The notes beneath the pieces were generated by a model that did no database searches, was not told the DNA's origin, and worked only from the letters and a program-made list of their open reading frames with translations. The position numbers and the translations under genes were made by a program. From a virus, in the IMG/VR virus record IMGVR_UViG_3300046787_000596, positions 1 to 39,866 of that record: DNA of 39,866 nucleotides, one strand, 5' to 3'. Numbering within the stretch: the first letter of the stretch is position 1; each line of letters begins with the position of its first letter. Below are positions 24,671 through 39,670 of this stretch, in pieces.

Positions 24671-24702
24671 TAAAATAACCCCTCTTAAGAGGGGTTATTT
24701 TA
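24671..24702. terminator. bidirectional terminator (perfect 32-base palindrome)
   Basis: TAAAATAACCCCTCTT pairs perfectly with AAGAGGGGTTATTTTA. It has T runs on both strands and separates converging genes; the nuclease gene's stop lies at its edge. Confidence 0.95.
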
Positions 24703-25341
24703 TTTTACTTTAAATCTAAATCCGGTTAATTTTTCAATAACTTCTATTTTGACTAAATTATTTTCAAGTCCGTCAGGTTTGTTTGTGGTGTTGTCAAAAA
24801 GATATGAGTAGTATATGTTACTTTTTTTAATATAAATGACTTTCCAACATTGTTTAGGGACTGCAACTCTACCAATTCTCTTAATCTCACCGATATTCCC
24901 GCACCAAACTTTAATACTGTCATGTTCGGTAGCCAACTGACGAGTTAACGTTTCTAACGACTTCCAATCACCAGCGTTTAACGAATGATATTGTGCAGAC
25001 ATATTTGAAAAGTAGAAACATTCATCTTGAACTTGTGGTGTTTGACAAAGATTGTCAGCGGCTGGCATCATATGACCACGGTCAGTCCCGCTACCTACAT
25101 AATCTTTCGCAATGTCAGTTTCTTTAACCAATTGAGGGTCCGGTTTGAAATTGTCTTTTCGTTTAAGAGGTGTTTTACAGGTGACCATAGACTTTGTTGT
25201 CCACCATTCGACTAATACCGGATAATGTTTAGTTTTACTAAATACTGTTGTATAATTAGTGTGTTTAATTCTAATAGTATCTTGGCTAAATAATAGTGAA
25301 GACATTAGAATAAATCCTAAAGTTAAAATAATGTTTTTCAT
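24700..25341 (-). CDS. secreted DNA/RNA non-specific endonuclease (NUC1 family)
   Basis: 213 residues. A Sec signal peptide (1-19, hydrophobic, ending LLFSQ) is followed by the NUC1 fold. DRGHMMPA (87-94) holds the catalytic His, SNMSAQYHSLNAGDW (112-126) the metal-binding Asn, and WKVIYIKK is a late core strand. Enzymes of this type cut DNA and RNA with Mg. Export to the periplasm suggests host DNA or competitor phage DNA outside the cytoplasm as target. It is divergent from a sulfotransferase-like gene with 17 bases between starts. Confidence 0.85.
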   Translation of the reverse strand: MKNIILTLGFILMSSLLFSQDTIRIKHTNYTTVFSKTKHYPVLVEWWTTKSMVTCKTPLKRKDNFKPDPQLVKETDIAKDYVGSGTDRGHMMPAADNLCQTPQVQDECFYFSNMSAQYHSLNAGDWKSLETLTRQLATEHDSIKVWCGNIGEIKRIGRVAVPKQCWKVIYIKKSNIYYSYLFDNTTNKPDGLENNLVKIEVIEKLTGFRFKVK

Positions 25342-27436: not shown

Positions 27437-27748
27437 ATGCCACAGGAATCAGTTTGGACAGTTTTAATCACCGCATTAACCGTATTAGGTTCTGCAAGTG
27501 CTTGGAGATTTTACGAAAAAAGAGCTTTAAGAAAAGAAAAAGATGAAGATTTTATCCGTCATGATTGTAGAGATAGAATTGGTAAATTAGAAGTGTTATT
27601 AGAACAAAGTAGTAAAGAAAAGGATAGTATGAGAGACACAATCTTAAAATTAACCGAGTCTGTTGCTCAATTAGCTATTAAAGTTGAATTTTTACAAAAA
27701 GAGAATAGTGAACTTCATGAGTCTTTGAAAAAGGCTCAAATGAATTAA
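27437..27748 (+). CDS. membrane-anchored coiled-coil protein, 103 aa
   Basis: One N-terminal transmembrane segment (about 6-24, VWTVLITALTVLGSASAW), a basic stretch (YEKRALRKEK), then a long coiled coil (GKLEVLLEQSS to ENSELHESLKK). The shape matches phage inner-membrane spanin or holin-accessory proteins, and lysis genes lie nearby. No sequence signature proves it. Confidence 0.65.
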   Translation: MPQESVWTVLITALTVLGSASAWRFYEKRALRKEKDEDFIRHDCRDRIGKLEVLLEQSSKEKDSMRDTILKLTESVAQLAIKVEFLQKENSELHESLKKAQMN

Positions 27749-28283: not shown

Positions 28284-28535
28284 ATGAAAAAATTTTTTAG
28301 CGAGTTATTCAATGATGATAACTCAATCAATGAAAAGAGTGTTGTGGGCTTTTTAGCTTTCATCATGATGGTGGCATTCGCAGTTGCGGACATTATCACA
28401 GGTTATTTAGGTCAAGACCTAGTAATAAACGAGTTTATCTTTAATGCCTTTATGTGGTTAGTTTTAGGTTCATTTGGTATCGGTTCGGTAGACAAATGGA
28501 TTAACAAAAGTAAAGGTGAAGAAACTGAAGAGTAA
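28284..28535 (+). CDS. holin-like two-helix membrane protein
   Basis: 83 residues: an N-terminal amphipathic MKKFFSELFNDDNSINEKS, then two hydrophobic segments (about 20-40, VVGFLAFIMMVAFAVADIITG; and 48-70, INEFIFNAFMWLVLGSFGIG), then a charged tail. This is the layout of phage holins and is like SINEKSVVGFLAF-type proteins that I associate with Bacteroidota phages. It would release the endolysin encoded at 31914. Confidence 0.65.
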   Translation: MKKFFSELFNDDNSINEKSVVGFLAFIMMVAFAVADIITGYLGQDLVINEFIFNAFMWLVLGSFGIGSVDKWINKSKGEETEE

Positions 28536-29492: not shown

Positions 29493-29783
29493 CTATTTTT
29501 TTTGACTTTTCAAATAGTCAACCAATTCTTGTAGTTTATCGGCATCTTCCGGATTAAAGATAAATTCATCAAAAGCACCATAATTAGATTGTCGTCCAAA
29601 GATATATCTCAAACCATAACCAACTCGTTCCCAAAAAGGTCGTTTTTTTAAGTGAATATGAAAATAACACATTGGGTATGTTTGTCCATTATCTAATTCA
29701 TCTTCCTCATACAATATAATTAATTGATGGTCAGTTGAATGGCAACTACAAATTAAGAGGTCTTTTTTATTTTTCATTTTCAA
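29493..29783 (-). CDS. unknown protein, 96 aa
   Basis: LLICSCHSTDHQLIILYEEDE opens with a Cys/His cluster, then MCYFHIHLKKRPFW, an aromatic loop and an acidic C-terminal helix (DADKLQELVDYLKS). The CSCHSxxHQ pattern could be a metal site. It overlaps the phosphoesterase gene upstream by 17 bases, so the two are cotranscribed. Confidence 0.7.
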   Translation of the reverse strand: MKMKNKKDLLICSCHSTDHQLIILYEEDELDNGQTYPMCYFHIHLKKRPFWERVGYGLRYIFGRQSNYGAFDEFIFNPEDADKLQELVDYLKSQKK

Positions 29784-30471
29784 TAAAGATTACTTCGTTA
29801 GTATCCGGATTCCAATCAATAGTCATTGGTTTTTGTGAGTAATTATATCTTTCATCTAATACCGCCGAATTGAAATGATGGGTATTATTTTTCATAACAT
29901 AACCATGTCCTGTGTGGATATGACCAACATTGTGAAGTTTAACATTCAATCTTTCTAATCTTTCCGCCAATAGTTCACAACCTAAATTATCGTGTCTTCT
30001 ACCTTCAACAGTATCTAATATACCAAACGCAGGTCCGTGAGTTAATAAGATATCAGTATCGTCAGGAATTCCTTCCCATTTACCCGCCAACCCAAATCCA
30101 TTTTTAGGTAAATTAAACGCCCAATCGTAGAACCAAGGTTGCCAAGGAGAACCATAAATCTTAACTTCTCTTTCATCACCAACTTTGATAATCAATTCAC
30201 TATCTTGAAGATATGTGATTCCGGTGTAAAAATCTAAAATTTCTTTCACCTTTTCTACATTGTCTTGAAATCCCCAATCATGGTTTCCTGCGATGAATAC
30301 CTTGTGAGTATATCCTTCAATACTATTGAACCATTTACAGAACTCTCTGATTTCGTGTTCATAACCCATAGAGGAGATATCACCACTATGTACCAATAAG
30401 TCACCTCCCGGTAAATCTCCGGTGATTTGTTTATGTTTGTTGTGTGTGTCTGAAATAAGCGTTACTCTCAT
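29767..30471 (-). CDS. calcineurin-like metallophosphoesterase
   Basis: 234 residues. All the metal-site blocks are present: SDTHN (7-11), SGDIS (29-33), AGNHDW (61-66), LTHGP and GHIHTGHG. The size and the NLPKNGFGLAGKWEGIP insert fit the MPPED/239AB-like branch, which hydrolyses phosphodiesters or phosphomonoesters. Cytoplasmic. A role in nucleotide turnover or RNA repair is possible. Confidence 0.85.
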   Translation of the reverse strand: MRVTLISDTHNKHKQITGDLPGGDLLVHSGDISSMGYEHEIREFCKWFNSIEGYTHKVFIAGNHDWGFQDNVEKVKEILDFYTGITYLQDSELIIKVGDEREVKIYGSPWQPWFYDWAFNLPKNGFGLAGKWEGIPDDTDILLTHGPAFGILDTVEGRRHDNLGCELLAERLERLNVKLHNVGHIHTGHGYVMKNNTHHFNSAVLDERYNYSQKPMTIDWNPDTNEVIFIENEK

Positions 30472-31913: not shown

Positions 31914-32735
31914 TTATTTTAATAAATTATAATATTCTTTAAAGTGTTTAATTCTATCAGGTAATCCAATAGTTCCACCATTTACTCTTTTAGTCACTGA
32001 AGTAACAGTTGCGTCATCCGCCCCTTTATCACAAATTGACCAAAGTTTATTTGAATCAAAGAAGAATGCTGCTGACGCTAATGGATATTTTGTTGCAACT
32101 AAATCAGGATTTGATACGGTATCTTCACCGATAAATTTTGCGAAATTTGTGTAGTTTTGTTTTCCTGTTAATTGGATGTAACCTCTACCTCTAAATTTAA
32201 ATCCGTCTTTTGTTGATTCGTCACCATTACCCATTCTTCCTCCATAAACTTTTGATGCTATTTTTTCAGGGTTTCTTGCGTAAGATTCTGCTAAGTTACC
32301 GGGAAAGTATTTTGGAAATATCTTTTTAAGACCGTCAGCGGAATAATTTACATTTTCAGAAACAGCTTTGAAACCACCTGATTCATGACCACATTGTGCC
32401 AAGAAGTGGGCCAACCTTAATGGGTTAGTTATGTTGAATTTTTTTGCGGTATCAGGTATTTGAGCAATTACTGATTCCGGGATATGACCTTTTAATTTTT
32501 CTAATTTGAATAACCCTCCCGATGGAATAACAACATCTTCTTTAATAACTTCACCGGGAAACATTTTTTTCCAAGTTCCATCACCAACAATTCCGTCAGA
32601 TGTTAATCCATTTTTGGTTTGCCATTCTTTAACTAATTTCTCAGTTCCGGGACCAAAAACACCATCGGGTGTTGTCCCTAATTTTGATTGAAGTTTTTTA
32701 ACTTCTTCGCCTTTTGAGCCGTTTTTTAGTATCAT
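31914..32735 (-). CDS. endolysin: PG-binding domain + GH19 chitinase-like domain
   Basis: 273 residues. Residues 1-60 form a PG_binding_1 repeat (GSKGEEVKKLQSKLG...DGVFGPGTEKLV...DGIVGDGTW). Residues about 80-270 match GH19 enzymes: LRLAHFLAQCGHESGGF with the catalytic Glu, FRGRGYIQLTGKQNY and RVNGGTIGLPDR. It cuts the peptidoglycan sugar backbone at the end of infection. It lacks a signal peptide, so it needs the holin. It is transcribed from its own TATTTAT motif. Confidence 0.9.
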   Translation of the reverse strand: MILKNGSKGEEVKKLQSKLGTTPDGVFGPGTEKLVKEWQTKNGLTSDGIVGDGTWKKMFPGEVIKEDVVIPSGGLFKLEKLKGHIPESVIAQIPDTAKKFNITNPLRLAHFLAQCGHESGGFKAVSENVNYSADGLKKIFPKYFPGNLAESYARNPEKIASKVYGGRMGNGDESTKDGFKFRGRGYIQLTGKQNYTNFAKFIGEDTVSNPDLVATKYPLASAAFFFDSNKLWSICDKGADDATVTSVTKRVNGGTIGLPDRIKHFKEYYNLLK

Positions 32736-32770: not shown

Positions 32771-33742
32771 TTAATCCTTCTTTCCTGTAGTGATTAAATA
32801 AAAGTTGGAATTACCCCCATTTATTGGTGAGTTTATTGTAACGGTTTGAACACCCGGATAAGAATTTCTTAAATCCGAAGTTGAGGAGTTTAAAATCGAA
32901 TATTGTGACGGTGTGAAGATTCTTGAGTTTGGTAATGAAACACCCCAAGAAGAGAACCTACCTGATTTTTTCATGAAAATGTAATAGGAATCTGAGATGT
33001 TAATTCTACCGTCATTATTAACATCGTATCTATAATAATCTAATGACGTAAATGTTCTTGAAATTGATTTCGTATTTGATTGTTGTGCGTCAATATTTTC
33101 TAATACAGATGGTGTTGGTGTATCAATTTGTAAATACCATTCAACTGAAGGATTTGATATTTCATTTATTAAATACCGACCATTTGAATTGGTATACACC
33201 GATTTGACATAAGTCCATTCGGTGTAAGTAACAATATAATCGAATTCCAAAACATATGGTAATGATGCGTTTGGTAAATCATTCCATTTACCACCTCCAA
33301 CAAATTGGATATAATCTTCATTTCCTGCATTGTTAGGTTCACCCCCGTTCCAATTCGACCAAGAAAAAGGTTCATTAGTAACCCATTTCCAAACACCTTC
33401 AGTTTCTTCATCGGTTAATCCAATCCACCCATTAGGCCATAATCCAAATAAGAAATTATTTTCAGCCAATGTTGTTGAAGTAACTAAATGCCCTCCCATA
33501 TTTAAACAAGCTTGTCTAGCATCGGTCCAAGTCATTGAACCCGTTGAACGATAATAAGAATGTCCGTTAAAATTATTTTGAGAAGTGAAACCATTTAAAG
33601 TTGGTGTTGTTCTCTTATACAACTTTACTTCTACATTTTGCGCACCACCACCTACCGAGTTATAGATATAACCCGAATAAGTGAAATTCTGGCCCCAAGA
33701 AATGGTGGTTAGTAAAAATACTATGTAGAATAATTTATTCAT
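32771..33742 (-). CDS. exported C-type lectin / dockerin-like protein
   Basis: 323 residues. The signal peptide is 1-18. A beta-sandwich-like segment (19-55) is followed by a C-type lectin-like domain at about 58-167: ARQACLNMGGHL, WIGLTDEETEGVWKW, EPN at 135-137 and WND at 153-155, the calcium and mannose-type sugar site. The final lectin Cys is replaced (YVLEFD), so the usual disulfide is absent. The sandwich resumes at 174-205, then comes a dockerin-like calcium loop DVNNDGRINISD (240-251) and a GRFSSW module. Probably a surface sugar-binding protein. Last gene of the operon. Confidence 0.8.
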   Translation of the reverse strand: MNKLFYIVFLLTTISWGQNFTYSGYIYNSVGGGAQNVEVKLYKRTTPTLNGFTSQNNFNGHSYYRSTGSMTWTDARQACLNMGGHLVTSTTLAENNFLFGLWPNGWIGLTDEETEGVWKWVTNEPFSWSNWNGGEPNNAGNEDYIQFVGGGKWNDLPNASLPYVLEFDYIVTYTEWTYVKSVYTNSNGRYLINEISNPSVEWYLQIDTPTPSVLENIDAQQSNTKSISRTFTSLDYYRYDVNNDGRINISDSYYIFMKKSGRFSSWGVSLPNSRIFTPSQYSILNSSTSDLRNSYPGVQTVTINSPINGGNSNFYLITTGKKD

Positions 33743-34189
33743 TTATTGTTCTAACGCGTTTTGTAATGCTTTCTTTAACGACGATGAGAATGATGATTTT
33801 TCAAAAGGAAGATTTTCATCCTGTAATTCTATGAATGTTGATTTAACATCAGTATTTGATTCTCCAATTCCTTTAAATTCTTTACCGTCCATAGTAATAA
33901 TTAATGTTACTATTGTTTTTTTTCTTTTTCTTTCAAACGGACCTAATGAGAAACCTGTTGACGGAGCCTCAATACTTTCAATTAGAACTGAAACGGGTTT
34001 ACCATCTTCACATATTGTTTTATTAACCGATAGTATCTCTTCGGTAATTTGCTTAACACCTAAAGTGAATCTTTTTGGATTAACCCCTTCAATTTCTCCG
34101 TTGTTTTTAACGTCTTTAACGGTATAACAATCTTGAGAAAATGATGTTAGTGAACTTAACACCATTAATGTAATTAATAATTTTTTCAT
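33743..34189 (-). CDS. exported small protein, 148 aa
   Basis: Signal peptide 1-19 (ending SFSQ). The mature part is strand-rich (FTLGVKQITEEIL, VSVLIESIEAP, KKTIVTLIITMDGKEFKGIGES) with a helical end. GIGESNTDVKST resembles GLGESNTVKTSS in the CsgG-like protein two genes upstream, so it may be a partner or a distant relative. Periplasmic or outer-membrane-associated. Function unknown. Confidence 0.7.
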   Translation of the reverse strand: MKKLLITLMVLSSLTSFSQDCYTVKDVKNNGEIEGVNPKRFTLGVKQITEEILSVNKTICEDGKPVSVLIESIEAPSTGFSLGPFERKRKKTIVTLIITMDGKEFKGIGESNTDVKSTFIELQDENLPFEKSSFSSSLKKALQNALEQ

Positions 34190-34191
34190 AG

Positions 34192-35457
34192 TTATAAAAA
34201 TGCTTTGGCACCAATTAATATTTGGTAATTTAGTGGTTGTTCTTTTATTTGTTGTACTCCACTGAAACTTAGGTTTAGTTTAAATTTTTTCGTTAATTTA
34301 TAATCAACAGCAATGAATGGAACGGCCAAAAATCCGGATTTATTCCACATACCTTCATAATAAAATACATATGGTGAATAAACCATTACAAACATCGTAG
34401 TCATCCCAATTTTTTTATTCAAATTAAAACTACCGTATACACCACCTAAGGTTGAAAAACTTTGGAATTTAGAATCCCCTAAATTACCGATGGTGTAATT
34501 TACACCAATAGTTGTGGTTACTTTTTTTATTTGATATGATTCCATTATTGATAATGTGTTAAAAAAATCTTTATCAAAATTCATCATTGAAGAATTTGCG
34601 ACAATTGTTGTTGATTTTTTATAACGATATGATGCGAATAATGTGATATTTGTATTGTTAATTTGACTTGTATAATTAACTAATGCACCTTTTGCGAATG
34701 TGTTTTTAGTATTTGAAGATATTATACTTGTATTAACTTTTATTTGTGATGGGTCAGAACCTGCAGCACTTCCTATTACAACAATATCTCCGGTCATCAT
34801 TAGACTACCTTTTTTAACCGCAGCCACCTTACTTTTAGTGGACGAAGAACTACTTGCCGATGATGATTCGGCCTCTCCGAGTTCCTCTTTATCCGATTTT
34901 TCAGTGTTATCTAATTTTACCGAATTAATACCCCCTGTTACATCACTTACACCACCCTCAGAAGTGTTTTGATTACTTCCTGTGGAGTTATTAGTATTTG
35001 GTGTTGTGGTATTATTAGTATTTGATGTTGTTGAGTTATTTTCGTTATTATTTGAGTTAACTTTTTCATCCGCTTGGATAACTCCTTGAACCGTATTACC
35101 CCCCATTGAAGATAACGAAGACAACGCAGACAAAACAGATGTTACCACTTGTATATTGTTTGCGGCTATTGTTGCGTTTACGGATGTGCTTTGTTGTAAT
35201 CCAATTCCACTACAAGGGCCCGATGGATTTTGTGAATCTATCTGATTTATCCATTGTTCCATCGCTCCGGATTGAAGTTGGTCATATGTAAAACTTTGAA
35301 CAGAACCGTTATATGATAATAAAACACTTTGGCTTGGGTTTGGTATGTAAATTTCCTTGGTTTTAGAAGTACAAGGGTCCGCATAAGAATATGTGAACCC
35401 TTGACCTAATACCATGGTTGAAAACATAAAAAATAAAATTGAAAGTAATTTTTTCAT
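34192..35457 (-). CDS. outer-membrane-barrel-like exported protein
   Basis: 421 residues. Signal peptide 1-18, a Cys-containing N-terminal domain (about 20-125), and a Ser/Asn/Thr-rich linker (about 135-215, with long Asn/Thr and Ser runs). The C-terminal 180 residues show alternating aromatic and polar strands (LVNYTSQINNTNITLFASYRYKKS, TTTIGVNYTIG, KFKLNLSFSGVQQ) ending in LIGAKAFL, the terminal hydrophobic residue expected for outer-membrane barrels. It starts in the stop of the CsgG-like gene (one-base overlap). Confidence 0.65.
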   Translation of the reverse strand: MKKLLSILFFMFSTMVLGQGFTYSYADPCTSKTKEIYIPNPSQSVLLSYNGSVQSFTYDQLQSGAMEQWINQIDSQNPSGPCSGIGLQQSTSVNATIAANNIQVVTSVLSALSSLSSMGGNTVQGVIQADEKVNSNNNENNSTTSNTNNTTTPNTNNSTGSNQNTSEGGVSDVTGGINSVKLDNTEKSDKEELGEAESSSASSSSSTKSKVAAVKKGSLMMTGDIVVIGSAAGSDPSQIKVNTSIISSNTKNTFAKGALVNYTSQINNTNITLFASYRYKKSTTIVANSSMMNFDKDFFNTLSIMESYQIKKVTTTIGVNYTIGNLGDSKFQSFSTLGGVYGSFNLNKKIGMTTMFVMVYSPYVFYYEGMWNKSGFLAVPFIAVDYKLTKKFKLNLSFSGVQQIKEQPLNYQILIGAKAFL

Positions 35458-36173
35458 TATTCTTTAAAAACCCCTTTTTTAATTAATTTAGAAACAACTC
35501 TTGAAGATGCGGTTTCTAAAGATTTTTTTGTTGATATACCAATTGTTGATTGGTTAAATTTAATTTCATCTACGTCATCTAAAAGAGATGATGTTTTTAC
35601 TGTGTTAGATTCACCTAACCCACTACCGGTTATAACTTCACCTGTTTGGGCATCGACAAATCTAATTTGTAATCCTAATCGAGTTGTTTGAGTTATTTTC
35701 GCACCTTCACTTCCCTTAATCACTTCGTCTTCTGATACACTGAAATCATAAACTTCTATGTAAACGAAATAGTTTGCTAAAATAACATTACCTTTAACTT
35801 CTATCTTATTACTTGAAATTCCTTTATCAGATGCCTTATCTTGGGCAATCATTTTGTTTTTGATTTCAGCCTTATCCTCAGTGAATTTAAACCTATCAGT
35901 TGATTCCAAATACTCTAATACAATATTCGCAACCCCAAGACCTACTCGTTTATCTTTTAGCTCAGGATACATCTCATATACCTCATCATTAATACCAATT
36001 TTTAATATTTGGATTGGTATTACGATATCCCCATTATAATCACTAACAACATCTAAAGATTGTTTTTTTTCAAAATCTGCTTTATAGTCCTCAGTCTTTA
36101 TGGTTCCAATAGTTTGAGATAATCCAAAACATGAAAAAAGTAAAAAAGGTAATAGTAATATTAACTTCTTCAT
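35457..36173 (-). CDS. CsgG-like curli-secretion-channel family lipoprotein
   Basis: 238 residues. The signal peptide has a lipobox-like LFSC at 12-15, so it may be a lipoprotein. GLGVANIVLEYLESTDRFKF (about 80-99), NVILANYFVYIEVYDFSV, RLGLQIRFVDAQTGEVITGSGLGES and a last helix ASSRVVSKLIKKG follow the CsgG order (bait helix with S-x-R-F, strand with Y-x(V/I), R-x-VD-x-x-T-G-E-V). CsgG forms an outer-membrane export pore for curli. It probably makes a similar ring here. Confidence 0.7.
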   Translation of the reverse strand: MKKLILLLPFLLFSCFGLSQTIGTIKTEDYKADFEKKQSLDVVSDYNGDIVIPIQILKIGINDEVYEMYPELKDKRVGLGVANIVLEYLESTDRFKFTEDKAEIKNKMIAQDKASDKGISSNKIEVKGNVILANYFVYIEVYDFSVSEDEVIKGSEGAKITQTTRLGLQIRFVDAQTGEVITGSGLGESNTVKTSSLLDDVDEIKFNQSTIGISTKKSLETASSRVVSKLIKKGVFKE

Positions 36174-36174
36174 C

Positions 36175-36516
36175 CTACCAAGGGTCTTCCTCTTCTTTTG
36201 GTTTAGCAGGTGCTGGTTGTGCTGCTGGTTTTTCTACAACTTTTTCTTTGATAATGGTCGTTCCACCATTATTGTTAGATTGTTGTTTTTGTTGGTTTGT
36301 ATTATTGTTTTGTAGGTTGATAACTACAGGGGCCGCCGCAGGTTGTACAACTTGTTCTGTTTTTGTTTCTTCTTTGTCATCACCATGACCTCCAAATAAT
36401 TGTGTTGATATCCATATACCTCCACCACCAATAATTGTAGTTAAAGTACCTATTAATGTTTTCTTTAATCCCGACCAAGTACCATCATTTTGTGTTTCTT
36501 GTGTTTCTTCTGACAT
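36175..36516 (-). CDS. single-pass protein with disordered periplasmic tail
   Basis: 113 residues. Acidic N-terminus, one Gly/Ile-rich membrane segment at about 22-43 (IGTLTTIIGGGGIWISTQLFGG), then Gln/Asn/Pro-rich low-complexity and an EKPAAQPAPAKPKEEEDPW end. It could span the periplasm like a TonB or linker protein, or anchor the complex made by its neighbours. It starts 69 bases after the T9SS gene and is followed one base later by the CsgG-like gene. Confidence 0.65.
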   Translation of the reverse strand: MSEETQETQNDGTWSGLKKTLIGTLTTIIGGGGIWISTQLFGGHGDDKEETKTEQVVQPAAAPVVINLQNNNTNQQKQQSNNNGGTTIIKEKVVEKPAAQPAPAKPKEEEDPW

Positions 36517-36558
36517 TTTAATTTAATTTTAATTGTTTATTTCCTTCTTATAGGCTTT

Positions 36559-36580
36559 GGTGTCACAATATTGTGACACC
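36559..36580. promoter_or_regulatory. 22-base perfect palindrome
   Basis: GGTGTCACAAT followed by its exact complement ATTGTGACACC, with no loop and no T run after it. It lies between the T9SS gene and the linker gene, 43 bases before the linker's ATG. A dimeric regulator site is more likely than a terminator. Confidence 0.5.
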
Positions 36581-36585
36581 ATAAA

Positions 36586-38469
36586 TTAGTTACGGATTAT
36601 CTTATTAGATTCTGTTCTCGTACCTTTTTTAAGAGTAACTATGTAAGTTCCTGAAGGAAGGTAACCAACATTTGTACTATATCTGTGTTCACCTGAGTTT
36701 AAATCAGTGTTAACAATTGTTTTAACTTCTCTACCACCTAAATCGTAAAGAGATAATGAAATATTTCCCGATTTCTCTACAGTAAATGTAACCGTGATGT
36801 TATCATCAGTTGGGTTAGGATATGTTATCATAGATTGGATATCAATTGGTCTAATTACTCTCATAATTTGGATAACACCATTAGTTGGTATTATTTTCAA
36901 ATCTCGAGCGTTTGAGTTTCCTGAGAATTTTTTAGTAACATACAATGGACTTACATTCCATTGAGATTGAATCTCTTTCGCAGTGAATTGTAAGGTAAAT
37001 GCTAATTCATTATCATTTAATAATTTTGAATTAGCGGTTGGGTCATAACCACCCCACTCAACAATATTATCGTTAGTATTAACATAAGTTATCCATCCAC
37101 TAACTTTATTCTCAGCTCTAACTCCTTTAAAATCTAATAGATTACTGTTGTAGTTCAGTGCCAATTGTAAAGAACCTAATTGAATACCGTTTGTTTTCAC
37201 AAGAACGGGAACATCAACTTGACTATTTTCATTTACACTTAAATTTGGATAGTTTAATTCGATTGTCTGTAATGTTGGGTCATCATAAGTTGTTGTCACA
37301 TCAATTATATGTGATGGTGCATTTAACGGGTTCACAATAGTAATTGGTGACATACGTGCCATACCAAATCCTGTGTTATTTGCATCACCTTTAACTAACA
37401 CATAAAAAGTAACCGTAGTTGTACCTGGTGTGATTTCGTAAATAAGGTTGGTGACACCCGGTATTGATGTTTGTAAACTTGATGATGAACCGTTGATTGA
37501 TGAATATTCTGATGATGTAAAGAATTTAATATCTTTAACTGAATTCGGCCAAGAACTGAATCTTCCTGAAACTCTACCGAATACTGAATAAACATCAGAT
37601 ACTGTTATGTTATTATCACCGTTAACATCTGAAGTATAAAAATCAAATCCACTTGGTGTGTCTTGACCTAACACGAATCTGTTAATTTTTTGTGAATCAG
37701 ACGTTGAGATAACATTTCCAATGTCTAATCCATCTCCTTGAACTCTGATTCTCACATTATAACTAGTGACATCAATTGGTACGTTAGTGAAAGTGAATAC
37801 CCCATCTAAATTTGTTTGTACTGTCGATGCTTGAACCCAAGTTGATGAAGTCATTAATTTTTTCTCTAAAATAACCGGAATTTGTTTTGAACCGGAACCA
37901 GTTACGTTAGTGAAAACACCTGAGAATGAAAAGGTTTGTGGTAAAAATGCTCCACCAAAGTTTTGTAAATTTAATGCGTAATCAGAACCATTTTGTTTTG
38001 TTGATGTTTGAGGGAATGTTTGAACACCACTAAATGTCATGGGCTGAACAGACGACAAACTCGCAAAATTTGCTGTGTGTACTAAATTTAATTTTACAAA
38101 TGACCCATCTGATAATTCAAAATTGGAATCATTACCGGTATAAGTTAGAGTAATCGTAACATATCCATTTGCAGGACTATCCTGAAATTGAATATATTGG
38201 GGGAACGATGTATTTGACGATACAACAGAAGACACTGATGTGAATGCTGCGGTGTCATAAAATACTCGAAACTGAACAGCCGTAACTAACTCGGTAGTAT
38301 TGTTAAAAAAACATAACCCTACTTCTGTACTACCTGCGGATGCGGGAGCCAATTGATAAGTTGCGTCTAAAGTAACAAAAACTCCGGTGGTTGTCGGCGT
38401 TGGACAAATTTGGGAATAACCCAATGAAGTCATCATAAGAAATGACAACACCATAAAAAGTTTTTTCAT
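36586..38469 (-). CDS. exported cohesin/dockerin-like protein with T9SS type A sorting domain
   Basis: 627 residues. Signal peptide 1-20; cohesin-like sandwich at about 22-160 (VTAVQFRVFYDTAAF); beta-sandwich at about 178-255. Then a dockerin-like loop DVNGDNNITVSD near 280 with GRFSSW, and a second cohesin-like domain at about 400-520 (LGSLQLALNYNSNLLDFKGV). The T9SS C-terminal domain at 550-627 shows YPNPTDDN, ISLSLYDLGGREV, LPSGTYIVTLK and NKIIRN. The sorting domain targets cargo through the type IX machinery and is normally removed as the protein is attached to the surface. First gene of the operon. Confidence 0.85.
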   Translation of the reverse strand: MKKLFMVLSFLMMTSLGYSQICPTPTTTGVFVTLDATYQLAPASAGSTEVGLCFFNNTTELVTAVQFRVFYDTAAFTSVSSVVSSNTSFPQYIQFQDSPANGYVTITLTYTGNDSNFELSDGSFVKLNLVHTANFASLSSVQPMTFSGVQTFPQTSTKQNGSDYALNLQNFGGAFLPQTFSFSGVFTNVTGSGSKQIPVILEKKLMTSSTWVQASTVQTNLDGVFTFTNVPIDVTSYNVRIRVQGDGLDIGNVISTSDSQKINRFVLGQDTPSGFDFYTSDVNGDNNITVSDVYSVFGRVSGRFSSWPNSVKDIKFFTSSEYSSINGSSSSLQTSIPGVTNLIYEITPGTTTVTFYVLVKGDANNTGFGMARMSPITIVNPLNAPSHIIDVTTTYDDPTLQTIELNYPNLSVNENSQVDVPVLVKTNGIQLGSLQLALNYNSNLLDFKGVRAENKVSGWITYVNTNDNIVEWGGYDPTANSKLLNDNELAFTLQFTAKEIQSQWNVSPLYVTKKFSGNSNARDLKIIPTNGVIQIMRVIRPIDIQSMITYPNPTDDNITVTFTVEKSGNISLSLYDLGGREVKTIVNTDLNSGEHRYSTNVGYLPSGTYIVTLKKGTRTESNKIIRN

Positions 38470-38500
38470 AGTTTAATAATATCTTGGTAATTTATTACCT

Positions 38501-38508
38501 ATAAATAT
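38501..38508 (-). promoter_or_regulatory. TATTTAT motif upstream of the surface operon
   Basis: ATATTTAT on the minus strand, 31 bases before the ATG at 38469. Confidence 0.4.
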
Positions 38509-38537
38509 TCTTAATAAAGTTCAGCACCTTGGTTATG

Positions 38538-38545
38538 GTATTTAT
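38538..38545 (+). promoter_or_regulatory. TATTTAT motif
   Basis: GTATTTAT, 11 bases before the ATG at 38557. Confidence 0.5.
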
Positions 38546-38556
38546 TTATAAAAAAC

Positions 38557-39015
38557 ATGAGATTCACCATATTATTAATGTTACTCCTCACCATTCAAAC
38601 GTTTTCGCAAATAAATGTTGACGATGTTGGCGAAGGGTGGAAAAAAAAGGTTGAAGAAAGTTTAGAAGTAATTCAAAAAACAGACTCATCAAAGTATGAT
38701 ATAGTAGTTACTCAATGTAAGAGAATTGGGTTTTGGAATGGTGATTTTTCAACAACAGAAGGTGGTGATGTTATACTAATATCAAAAAAAGATATTCAAT
38801 CAGGTAATATTAATAATTTGTCGGCAATAATAATTCATGAATCGAAACATTTATATTATAAGAACAATAGTATATTTTTAGACGAAAGGGTTGAGGAGAT
38901 TTTATGTTATCAATATGAATTGGATTTCCTCAAAAAAATACCTTTAGTTGAAGATTGGTTAATCGAACATTGTGAAAATATGATTAACTACTATCGTAAT
39001 TTAAAACAACAATAA
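38557..39015 (+). CDS. exported HESKH zincin-like protein
   Basis: 152 residues. Signal peptide 1-17. AIIIHESKHLYY (90-101) is an HExxH zinc site; FLDERVEEILCYQYE (about 108-122) offers a downstream Glu. The size is that of a minimal peptidase domain. Exported, so it may trim cell-wall or outer-membrane proteins. It faces away from the surface operon (divergent starts 88 bases apart). Confidence 0.65.
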   Translation: MRFTILLMLLLTIQTFSQINVDDVGEGWKKKVEESLEVIQKTDSSKYDIVVTQCKRIGFWNGDFSTTEGGDVILISKKDIQSGNINNLSAIIIHESKHLYYKNNSIFLDERVEEILCYQYELDFLKKIPLVEDWLIEHCENMINYYRNLKQQ

Positions 39016-39043: not shown

Positions 39044-39670
39044 ATGAGTAATTTAAGACAAATAATTAAAGAGACATTAGAGTCTCATTTAGATAAGTCA
39101 CTTATTTTAAAAGAAGATGTTGAAGTTTCACCTTCGTTGTCTTACCACATAAATGAGGGGTTATCATTAACAAACAATGTTTTTAGGGTATATTCAGAAT
39201 CGTATTTTGAATTGGTAAATGAAGTTAGACGTTTGTGGAATGAAGGTAAAATTGACCTTAATGAAGAAGATAAATTAATGGTTGAATCTGATTTAGGTGT
39301 TAGGGTTAAAAAGGGTGATGAGATAATTTATTTGGATGCTCCTTATATCTATGAAACCGAAACGGAAGATGATATTTTACAAGAAGCCATACACAGAGGA
39401 AAAAAGGTTGAATTAAATAAACCTAAAAGAACTCCCGGAGGACCTAAAAAATTCGCGGTTTATGTTAAAACACCTGGTGGTGGGGTTAAAAAAGTGACTT
39501 TCGGTGACCCAAAATTGAAGATAAAGAATTCAAATAAGGGTGCTGCCAAATCATTTAGGGCTCGTCATAAATGTGACCAAAAGAAAGATAGAACAACTGC
39601 GGGGTATTGGTCATGTAATGTTGGTAGATATGCAAAACAATTAGGTCTTTCTTCTTCAAACTCTTGGTAA
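39044..39670 (+). CDS. DUF5872-like phage protein with IIKE leader
   Basis: 208 residues. The first 25, MSNLRQIIKETLESHLDKSL, are a leader helix with I-K-E. Residues about 140-208 carry KFAVYVKTPGGGVKKVTFGDP, a basic AAKSFRARHKCDQKKDRTTAGYWSCNVGRYAK stretch and a Ser-rich end, resembling the DUF5872 module of other large phages (from memory). The basic, Cys-containing end could bind DNA or be structural. It shares one base with the next start. Confidence 0.75.
   Translation: MSNLRQIIKETLESHLDKSLILKEDVEVSPSLSYHINEGLSLTNNVFRVYSESYFELVNEVRRLWNEGKIDLNEEDKLMVESDLGVRVKKGDEIIYLDAPYIYETETEDDILQEAIHRGKKVELNKPKRTPGGPKKFAVYVKTPGGGVKKVTFGDPKLKIKNSNKGAAKSFRARHKCDQKKDRTTAGYWSCNVGRYAKQLGLSSSNSW

Follow-up and report, generated by a model that had tools for sequence, protein, structure and literature searches.

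Curli-related csgGF clusters have been described in pelagimyophages and in methylophage Melnitz, gp14-gp16 of HTVC008M among them (PMC7029224; PMC9004378). Sorting domains of the type IX secretion system (T9SS) have previously been reported on phage proteins in Cryophage (PMC7468147), and the phages listed as lacking spanins include Bacteroides and Croceibacter phages (PMC6139136). The locus considered here, at positions 32771-38469 of a 39,866-base virus record (IMG/VR IMGVR_UViG_3300046787_000596, analyzed over its full length and called the window), encodes a cohesin scaffold with a T9SS tail, a membrane linker, two CsgG-fold proteins, a barrel protein and a lectin. No prior description of this module was found in the open-access literature, in agreement with a preliminary description of the locus, which mentioned CsgG-like genes in some marine myophages but no known case of this combination. 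Tentatively, and at somewhat less than even chances, we infer that this phage-specific module builds an envelope-spanning complex for host exit. The proposal bears on how Bacteroidota phages open the outer membrane, and it is directly testable since the module is found beside lysis genes and is carried by a phage isolate whose host can be cultured.

Six minus-strand open reading frames (ORFs) were confirmed, separated in transcription order by 69, 1, -1, 2 and 0 bases, exactly as had been claimed for a co-directional run with gaps of -1 to 69 bases. They encode a scaffold of 627 amino acids (36586-38469; the "adhesin" of the preliminary description, recognized by Pfam and NCBIfam), a 113-residue linker (36175-36516), a CsgG-fold protein of 238 residues with a signal peptide (35457-36173), a 421-residue barrel protein (34192-35457), a small exported protein of 148 residues (33743-34189) and a lectin of 323 residues (32771-33742; Pfam). 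By inspection, an N-terminal signal peptide is present in five of the six proteins, as previously noted, the linker being the exception. While the six genes stand, the limits of the proposed operon do not: an endolysin gene on the same strand (31914-32735; PG_binding_1 and GH19 domains by Pfam, phrog_181 endolysin at 6.4e-68) starts 35 bases 3' of the lectin gene, so that the run has at least seven members.

The cohesion of the set is best seen from its recurrence. Flavobacterium phage vB_FspM_immuto, an isolate whose host is Flavobacterium sp. LMO8, carries the module with a CsgG-like protein 78% identical to that of the window (tblastn), its gp13-gp19 corresponding to the lectin, the N-terminal and C-terminal halves of the scaffold, the linker, the CsgG-fold protein, the barrel and the small protein. 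When viral contigs were scanned with the CsgG-like query, 80 of 165 relatives were taken and the same gene set was found in nearly all of them; a second scan with a diverged CsgG-fold protein gave at least 79 further loci. The linkage statements and counts below rest on loci recovered by these CsgG-type queries, up to 80 being taken per scan. This search of gene neighborhoods, which had been proposed as a check, therefore places the set, with some variation in gene order, in immuto and in at least ~160 viral loci, and a chance grouping is thereby excluded. Of the distinct loci, 70 are flanked by 5 kb or more on both sides and are referred to as complete; the scaffold, the linker, the barrel and the small protein are present in 70/70 (the CsgG-fold protein being present by construction). 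The neighbors vary, with replication genes next to the module in immuto and virion structural genes in loci L206-L226. As the neighboring genes differ between loci while the core stays together, the unit moves as one, and the scaffold, linker, CsgG-fold, barrel and small CsgG-fold proteins are shown to be inherited as a single unit. The idea that these genes form one machine is thus strongly supported for this core, whose members never separate in the complete loci.

Within the genomes searched, the module appears as phage-specific. A peptide-pattern scan of 84,980 species genomes, which was not exhaustive, matched only two contigs, L083 (CAIWBA010000291.1) and L084 (NZ_JAHEBT010000009.1), both in public Bacteroidota metagenome-assembled genomes and both carrying module neighbors. 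A chromosomal origin was considered for them and rejected, as they look like phage contigs binned into these assemblies. Profile searches of 397 bacterial genomes of the same family returned only one such phage-like contig and one marginal short match (E 0.006), and no further occurrence of the linker was seen in 299 same-family genomes. Chromosomal homologues in the same order, which would have spoken against a phage machine, are accordingly lacking in the 397 and 299 family genomes, and the alternative of a bacterial-chromosome assembly failed likewise; the contig is a virus record, and the gene set lies on phage contigs.

In Pfam, PHROGs and NCBIfam profile searches, no curated family was matched by the CsgG-like, small, barrel or linker proteins, which were characterized by sequence comparison and, for the CsgG-like and barrel proteins, by structure prediction. 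The AlphaFold2 (AF2) model of the CsgG-fold protein, computed from 21 orthologues with moderate confidence (predicted local distance difference test score, pLDDT, 65), has pre-pore CsgG 4uv2 as its best Foldseek match (E 4.5e-8, prob 1.0, template-modeling score 0.41-0.49); further lipoproteins with a related fold come next. Pfam CsgG (PF03783) has no match at E<=1 for the window protein and none in the immuto genome, and a CsgG-like profile gave no useful match against PDB sequences; HTVC008M CsgG, the positive comparison, matches PF03783 at 1.8e-54 (180 bits). The hairpin signature GGVGARYFGIG of HTVC008M is also absent, the corresponding stretches being highly charged. With Pfam CsgG unmatched and this signature absent, a pore function is unproven, and what remains of the previously described "CsgG-like pore" is the fold, not family membership or evident pore hairpins. 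A lipobox-like sequence is found in 9/21 of the orthologues, the window copy having LFSC. The protein previously called a small periplasmic protein is indeed exported; its similarity to the CsgG-fold protein (blastp E 0.004; hhalign probability 94%, E 1.5e-7) identifies it, at the level of profile comparison, as a second, diverged CsgG-fold protein, and its identity is revised in this sense.

For the barrel protein, AF2 (pLDDT 62) predicts an N-terminal domain (residues 21-118), a disordered stretch (~119-215) and a C-terminal 12-strand β-barrel (218-419), with NanC/KdgM porins and FapF as Foldseek matches; the alignment was also consulted. There is no profile support for the barrel, but the moderate-confidence model and Foldseek agree, and single-protein structure prediction, which had been recommended, yields a recognizable fold for both the CsgG-fold protein and the barrel. 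The linker, described earlier as a membrane linker, has a short cytosolic N-terminus, one Gly-rich and weakly hydrophobic membrane segment (~18-38; best 19-residue hydropathy 1.2) and a Pro/Asn/Gln-rich tail that ends, across the alignment, in an invariant Trp. Additional genes are inserted in some loci: an extra exported barrel-like protein of 261-273 amino acids (L014 10666-11451, L083 13513-14334, also L054 and L066) and, in seven loci, a 327-residue Ala-rich protein with SAEAHA-type repeats between the linker and CsgG-fold genes (L044 9015-9998).

The lysis link raised in the preliminary description finds support in the genes that surround the module. A GH19 endolysin gene is near it in 44/70 complete loci (5 kb) and in 48/64 (6.5 kb), and genes for holin-like proteins with two membrane segments in 48/70 and 53/64, respectively; an endolysin, holin-like or coiled-coil gene lies within 5 kb in 64/70. 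The endolysin gene can even be found inside the module, between the csgG and barrel genes, in L084 and L179-L189. On the opposite strand of the window, 4-5 kb from the module, are a holin-like protein with two membrane segments (28284-28535, +), assigned from topology only, whose relative holB adjoins the lysin or the module in other loci, and a membrane protein with a coiled coil (27437-27748, +) that has weak Rz-like (0.024) and "hol-like" matches.

Regarding timing, a motif search of the divergent intergenic region upstream of the scaffold gene (38470-38556) revealed the promoter-like motifs TATTTATA and TATAAATA, the latter at 38500-38507 (+) and 38543-38550 (-). The pattern [AC]TATTTAT is found upstream of first genes (21/32 scaffold, 16/16 gp14-type and 11/35 lysin genes) and upstream of none of the csgG (0/56), barrel (0/42) or small (0/46) genes, i.e., 0/144. 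In the immuto genome, TATTTATA stands before 16/68 structural-region genes vs. 3/50 early-region genes, the random expectation being 1.2%. This pattern is consistent with late transcription of the module as an operon, and the module is probably expressed together with virion genes. A T4-type late promoter, TATAAATA, had first seemed enriched and was rejected, with 14 occurrences vs. 10 expected in the window and few before immuto structural genes; the coding-strand motif TATTTATA fits better. No proteomics or transcriptomics papers on immuto were found.

Taken together, the products of the module probably remodel the outer surface of the host late in infection. Judging from sequence and models, the linker would sit in the inner membrane with its tail in the periplasm, and the CsgG-fold proteins and the barrel would be located at the outer membrane, with the cohesin scaffold as organizer of a complex that acts with the endolysin and the holin. 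Once peptidoglycan is cut by the endolysin, the complex would join or destabilize the inner and outer membranes, which is the job of spanins, and it could possibly be a spanin substitute in Bacteroidota phages. In the flavophage variant represented by the window, the cohesin/dockerin scaffold would be carried to the cell surface by the host T9SS and would there hold a lectin with a dockerin tail, which is interchangeable and would bind glycans of the host; by loosening or masking the surface layer, the lectin may let progeny leave cleanly and without re-adsorption. This fuller version, in which Bacteroidota phages would both breach and re-coat the outer membrane with a spanin-independent exit complex of five proteins, and in which hosts that have a T9SS would export the scaffold so that it displays swappable lectins, is doubtful and less probable than the general proposal.

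Several observations weigh against an exit complex. Unlike in known spanin pairs, no coiled coil is evident in the linker, and a lipobox is seen in only 9/21 of the CsgG-fold proteins. Some phages with the module also encode membrane proteins with coiled coils, which are candidates for ordinary spanins or holins. As profile searches give no holin match, the neighboring genes are holin-like by topology only. The [AC]TATTTAT motif could be an RNA-processing signal and not a promoter, and its orientation in the divergent region is ambiguous because TATTTATA and TATAAATA are reverse complements. Specific co-variation between cohesin and dockerin was tested and none was seen (partial rho 0.10-0.16). 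Finally, a role in lysis alone does not explain the variable lectins.

These lectins are best considered with the scaffold. The latter comprises a signal peptide, a cohesin-like sandwich, immunoglobulin (Ig)-like and dockerin-like modules (~197-365) with a calcium loop DVNGDNNITVSD at residue 281, a second cohesin (408-534) and a T9SS type A tail (550-625). Both the tail (PF18962 at 9e-12, 45.5 bits vs. a cut-off of 27; also TIGR04183) and the cohesin (PF00963 at 7e-9, 36.5 bits vs. 24.1) are recovered by Pfam, which bears out the T9SS tail and the cohesin of the protein earlier described as an adhesin; among scaffold orthologues the tail is found in 21/21 and the cohesin in 16/21. With its signal peptide and C-terminal sorting domain, the scaffold has the sequence features of a T9SS type A cargo protein. 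Its two halves are likely to be functionally linked, since the single scaffold of the window corresponds to two proteins, gp14 and gp15, in immuto. The lectin has a signal peptide, a C-type lectin head (69-157; Pfam 2e-14, in line with its earlier assignment) and an Ig-like plus dockerin-like tail with a calcium loop DVNNDGRINISD at residue 240; it has no T9SS tail, and its own tail is homologous to scaffold residues 197-361. The dockerin-like module has one canonical calcium loop, the first being degenerate, and does not conform to a type I dockerin with two such loops (PF00404 13.7 and 11.5 vs. a cut-off of 22.9).

The heads found in the lectin slot, all on a conserved Ig-like plus dockerin-like tail, are diverse (Lectin_C in 25/32, Laminin_G_3 in 9, GEVED in 3 and PA14 in 2). 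Between L040 and L068 the CsgG-fold protein is 98% and the linker 100% identical, the lectin only 43%; L071 and L072 are near-identical cassettes (100%) with lectins 41% identical. Distances between heads hardly follow the core phylogeny (rho 0.20-0.28), whereas tail distances do (0.61-0.64), and by these comparisons the head is swapped between close relatives. In L072 (5485-7761), two tandem lectin genes with different heads (422 and 334 amino acids) have the look of an unfinished swap. Among 86 distinct loci, 57 have both the T9SS tail and a separate lectin, 29 have neither and none is mixed; only two to three switches of state are placed on the CsgG tree, so that a Fisher p-value for this pairing overstates independence. 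From the strict co-occurrence, display of the lectin is the suggested purpose of the tail; phages would thus use the T9SS of the host to coat infected cells with sugar-binding proteins of phage origin. The tail and the lectin are an add-on of some lineages outside the core, and the earlier view of six genes as one set thus holds for the five core genes and not for these two elements, which 29/86 loci lack.

Such variable lectins fit well with superinfection exclusion or receptor masking, the main rival explanation, improbable on balance and yet far ahead of the others. Here the T9SS-secreted scaffold would display a lectin chosen by the phage; with the surface glycans covered in this way, rival phages would be blocked and progeny kept off the infected cell or its debris, while the barrel, the CsgG-fold proteins and the linker would be export or anchoring gear. 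The exchange of glycan-binding heads among near-identical cassettes and the strict pairing of tail and lectin argue for it, and an exported nuclease encoded nearby could cut incoming DNA. However, one third of the loci (29/86) keep the core without lectin or T9SS tail, the lysis genes are a constant neighborhood, and the probable late timing would be less useful. Surface adhesion is considerably less probable: sticky infected cells would hold neighboring hosts at lysis, or a fiber of the curli or Fap type would be secreted by way of the CsgG-fold and barrel proteins, as the CsgG-like fold, the presence of FapF among the barrel matches and an earlier proposal for pelagimyophage curli genes (PMC7029224) might suggest. 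Against this, the module proteins have no phmmer match to the HTVC008M curli region, no CsgA/B/E/F or Fap subunit was recognized among recurrent neighbors, and neither the pore-hairpin signature nor Pfam CsgG is matched. That some products serve adsorption on the phage particle is very unlikely given the Sec signal peptides on all proteins but the linker, since the assembly of tailed virions takes place in the cytoplasm. Tail fibers often contain lectin and Ig/cohesin domains and the module abuts structural genes in some phages, but in immuto it is far from the tail fiber and spike genes. Least probable of all are independent morons merely sharing one late operon. The nuclease, HExxH protein and holin-like genes, which are not always present or in the same place, would fit this view, but the five core genes stay together in all 70 complete loci, although the neighbors differ; the scaffold also undergoes gp14/gp15 fission-fusion, and tail and lectin are coupled.

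Other genes of the window accompany the module less regularly. The exported Endonuclease_NS nuclease (24700-25341, -; PF01223 at 1.1e-36), a DNA/RNA non-specific endonuclease, has its counterpart in immuto gp12, directly before the lectin gene, and lies within the module in L010, L019 and L060. Divergent from the module is the gene for an exported, metallopeptidase-like HExxH protein of 152 amino acids (38557-39015, +), in which H94, E95, H98, E113, E114 and E121 are invariant in an alignment of 15 orthologues; it is co-oriented within the module in L035, L052, L055, L060 and others. A 208-residue protein of unknown function (39044-39670, +), with a C-terminal domain matching the phrog_7595 profile (5e-15), has its gene close to the module in several loci, L244 (11479-12105) among them, and a metallophosphoesterase-like gene (29767-30471, -) recurs close to it in 21/59 distinct loci.

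When compared with known systems, the proposed exit complex shares with the phage curli clusters an exported, phage-encoded CsgG-fold protein and a proposed link to lysis or surface change. It differs from them in that the immuto protein does not match at all the Pfam family to which HTVC008M CsgG belongs, in having no recognized CsgF or CsgB homologue, and in that a cohesin scaffold, a linker and a barrel accompany not one but two CsgG-fold proteins. The barrel resembles FapF and KdgM/NanC in its 12 strands, and FapF also in having an N-terminal region before the barrel; unlike these, it is only ~11% identical to them and has a long Asn/Ser/Gly linker, and no Fap genes are recognized around it. 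As in Cryophage, T9SS sorting domains are found on phage genes, there on an endoglucanase, a GH39 protein and a PA14 protein (PMC7468147), here on the scaffold of a conserved multigene set. Like a cellulosome scaffoldin system, the module spreads cohesin and dockerin-like domains over partner proteins and has interchangeable sugar-binding partners; in contrast to it, the module is phage-encoded, has a T9SS tail, one canonical calcium loop and no enzymes, and its cohesin-dockerin pairing is putative. With two-component spanins such as Rz/Rz1 and T4 PseT.3/PseT.2 (PMC6139136), the module differs in its Pro/Asn/Gln-rich linker tail without evident coiled coil, its non-conserved lipobox, and its larger size with a 12-strand barrel and a cohesin scaffold. 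What it has in common with them is a predicted inner-membrane protein with a periplasmic tail, a putative partner on the outer-membrane side, and a place beside endolysin and, by topology, holin-like genes.

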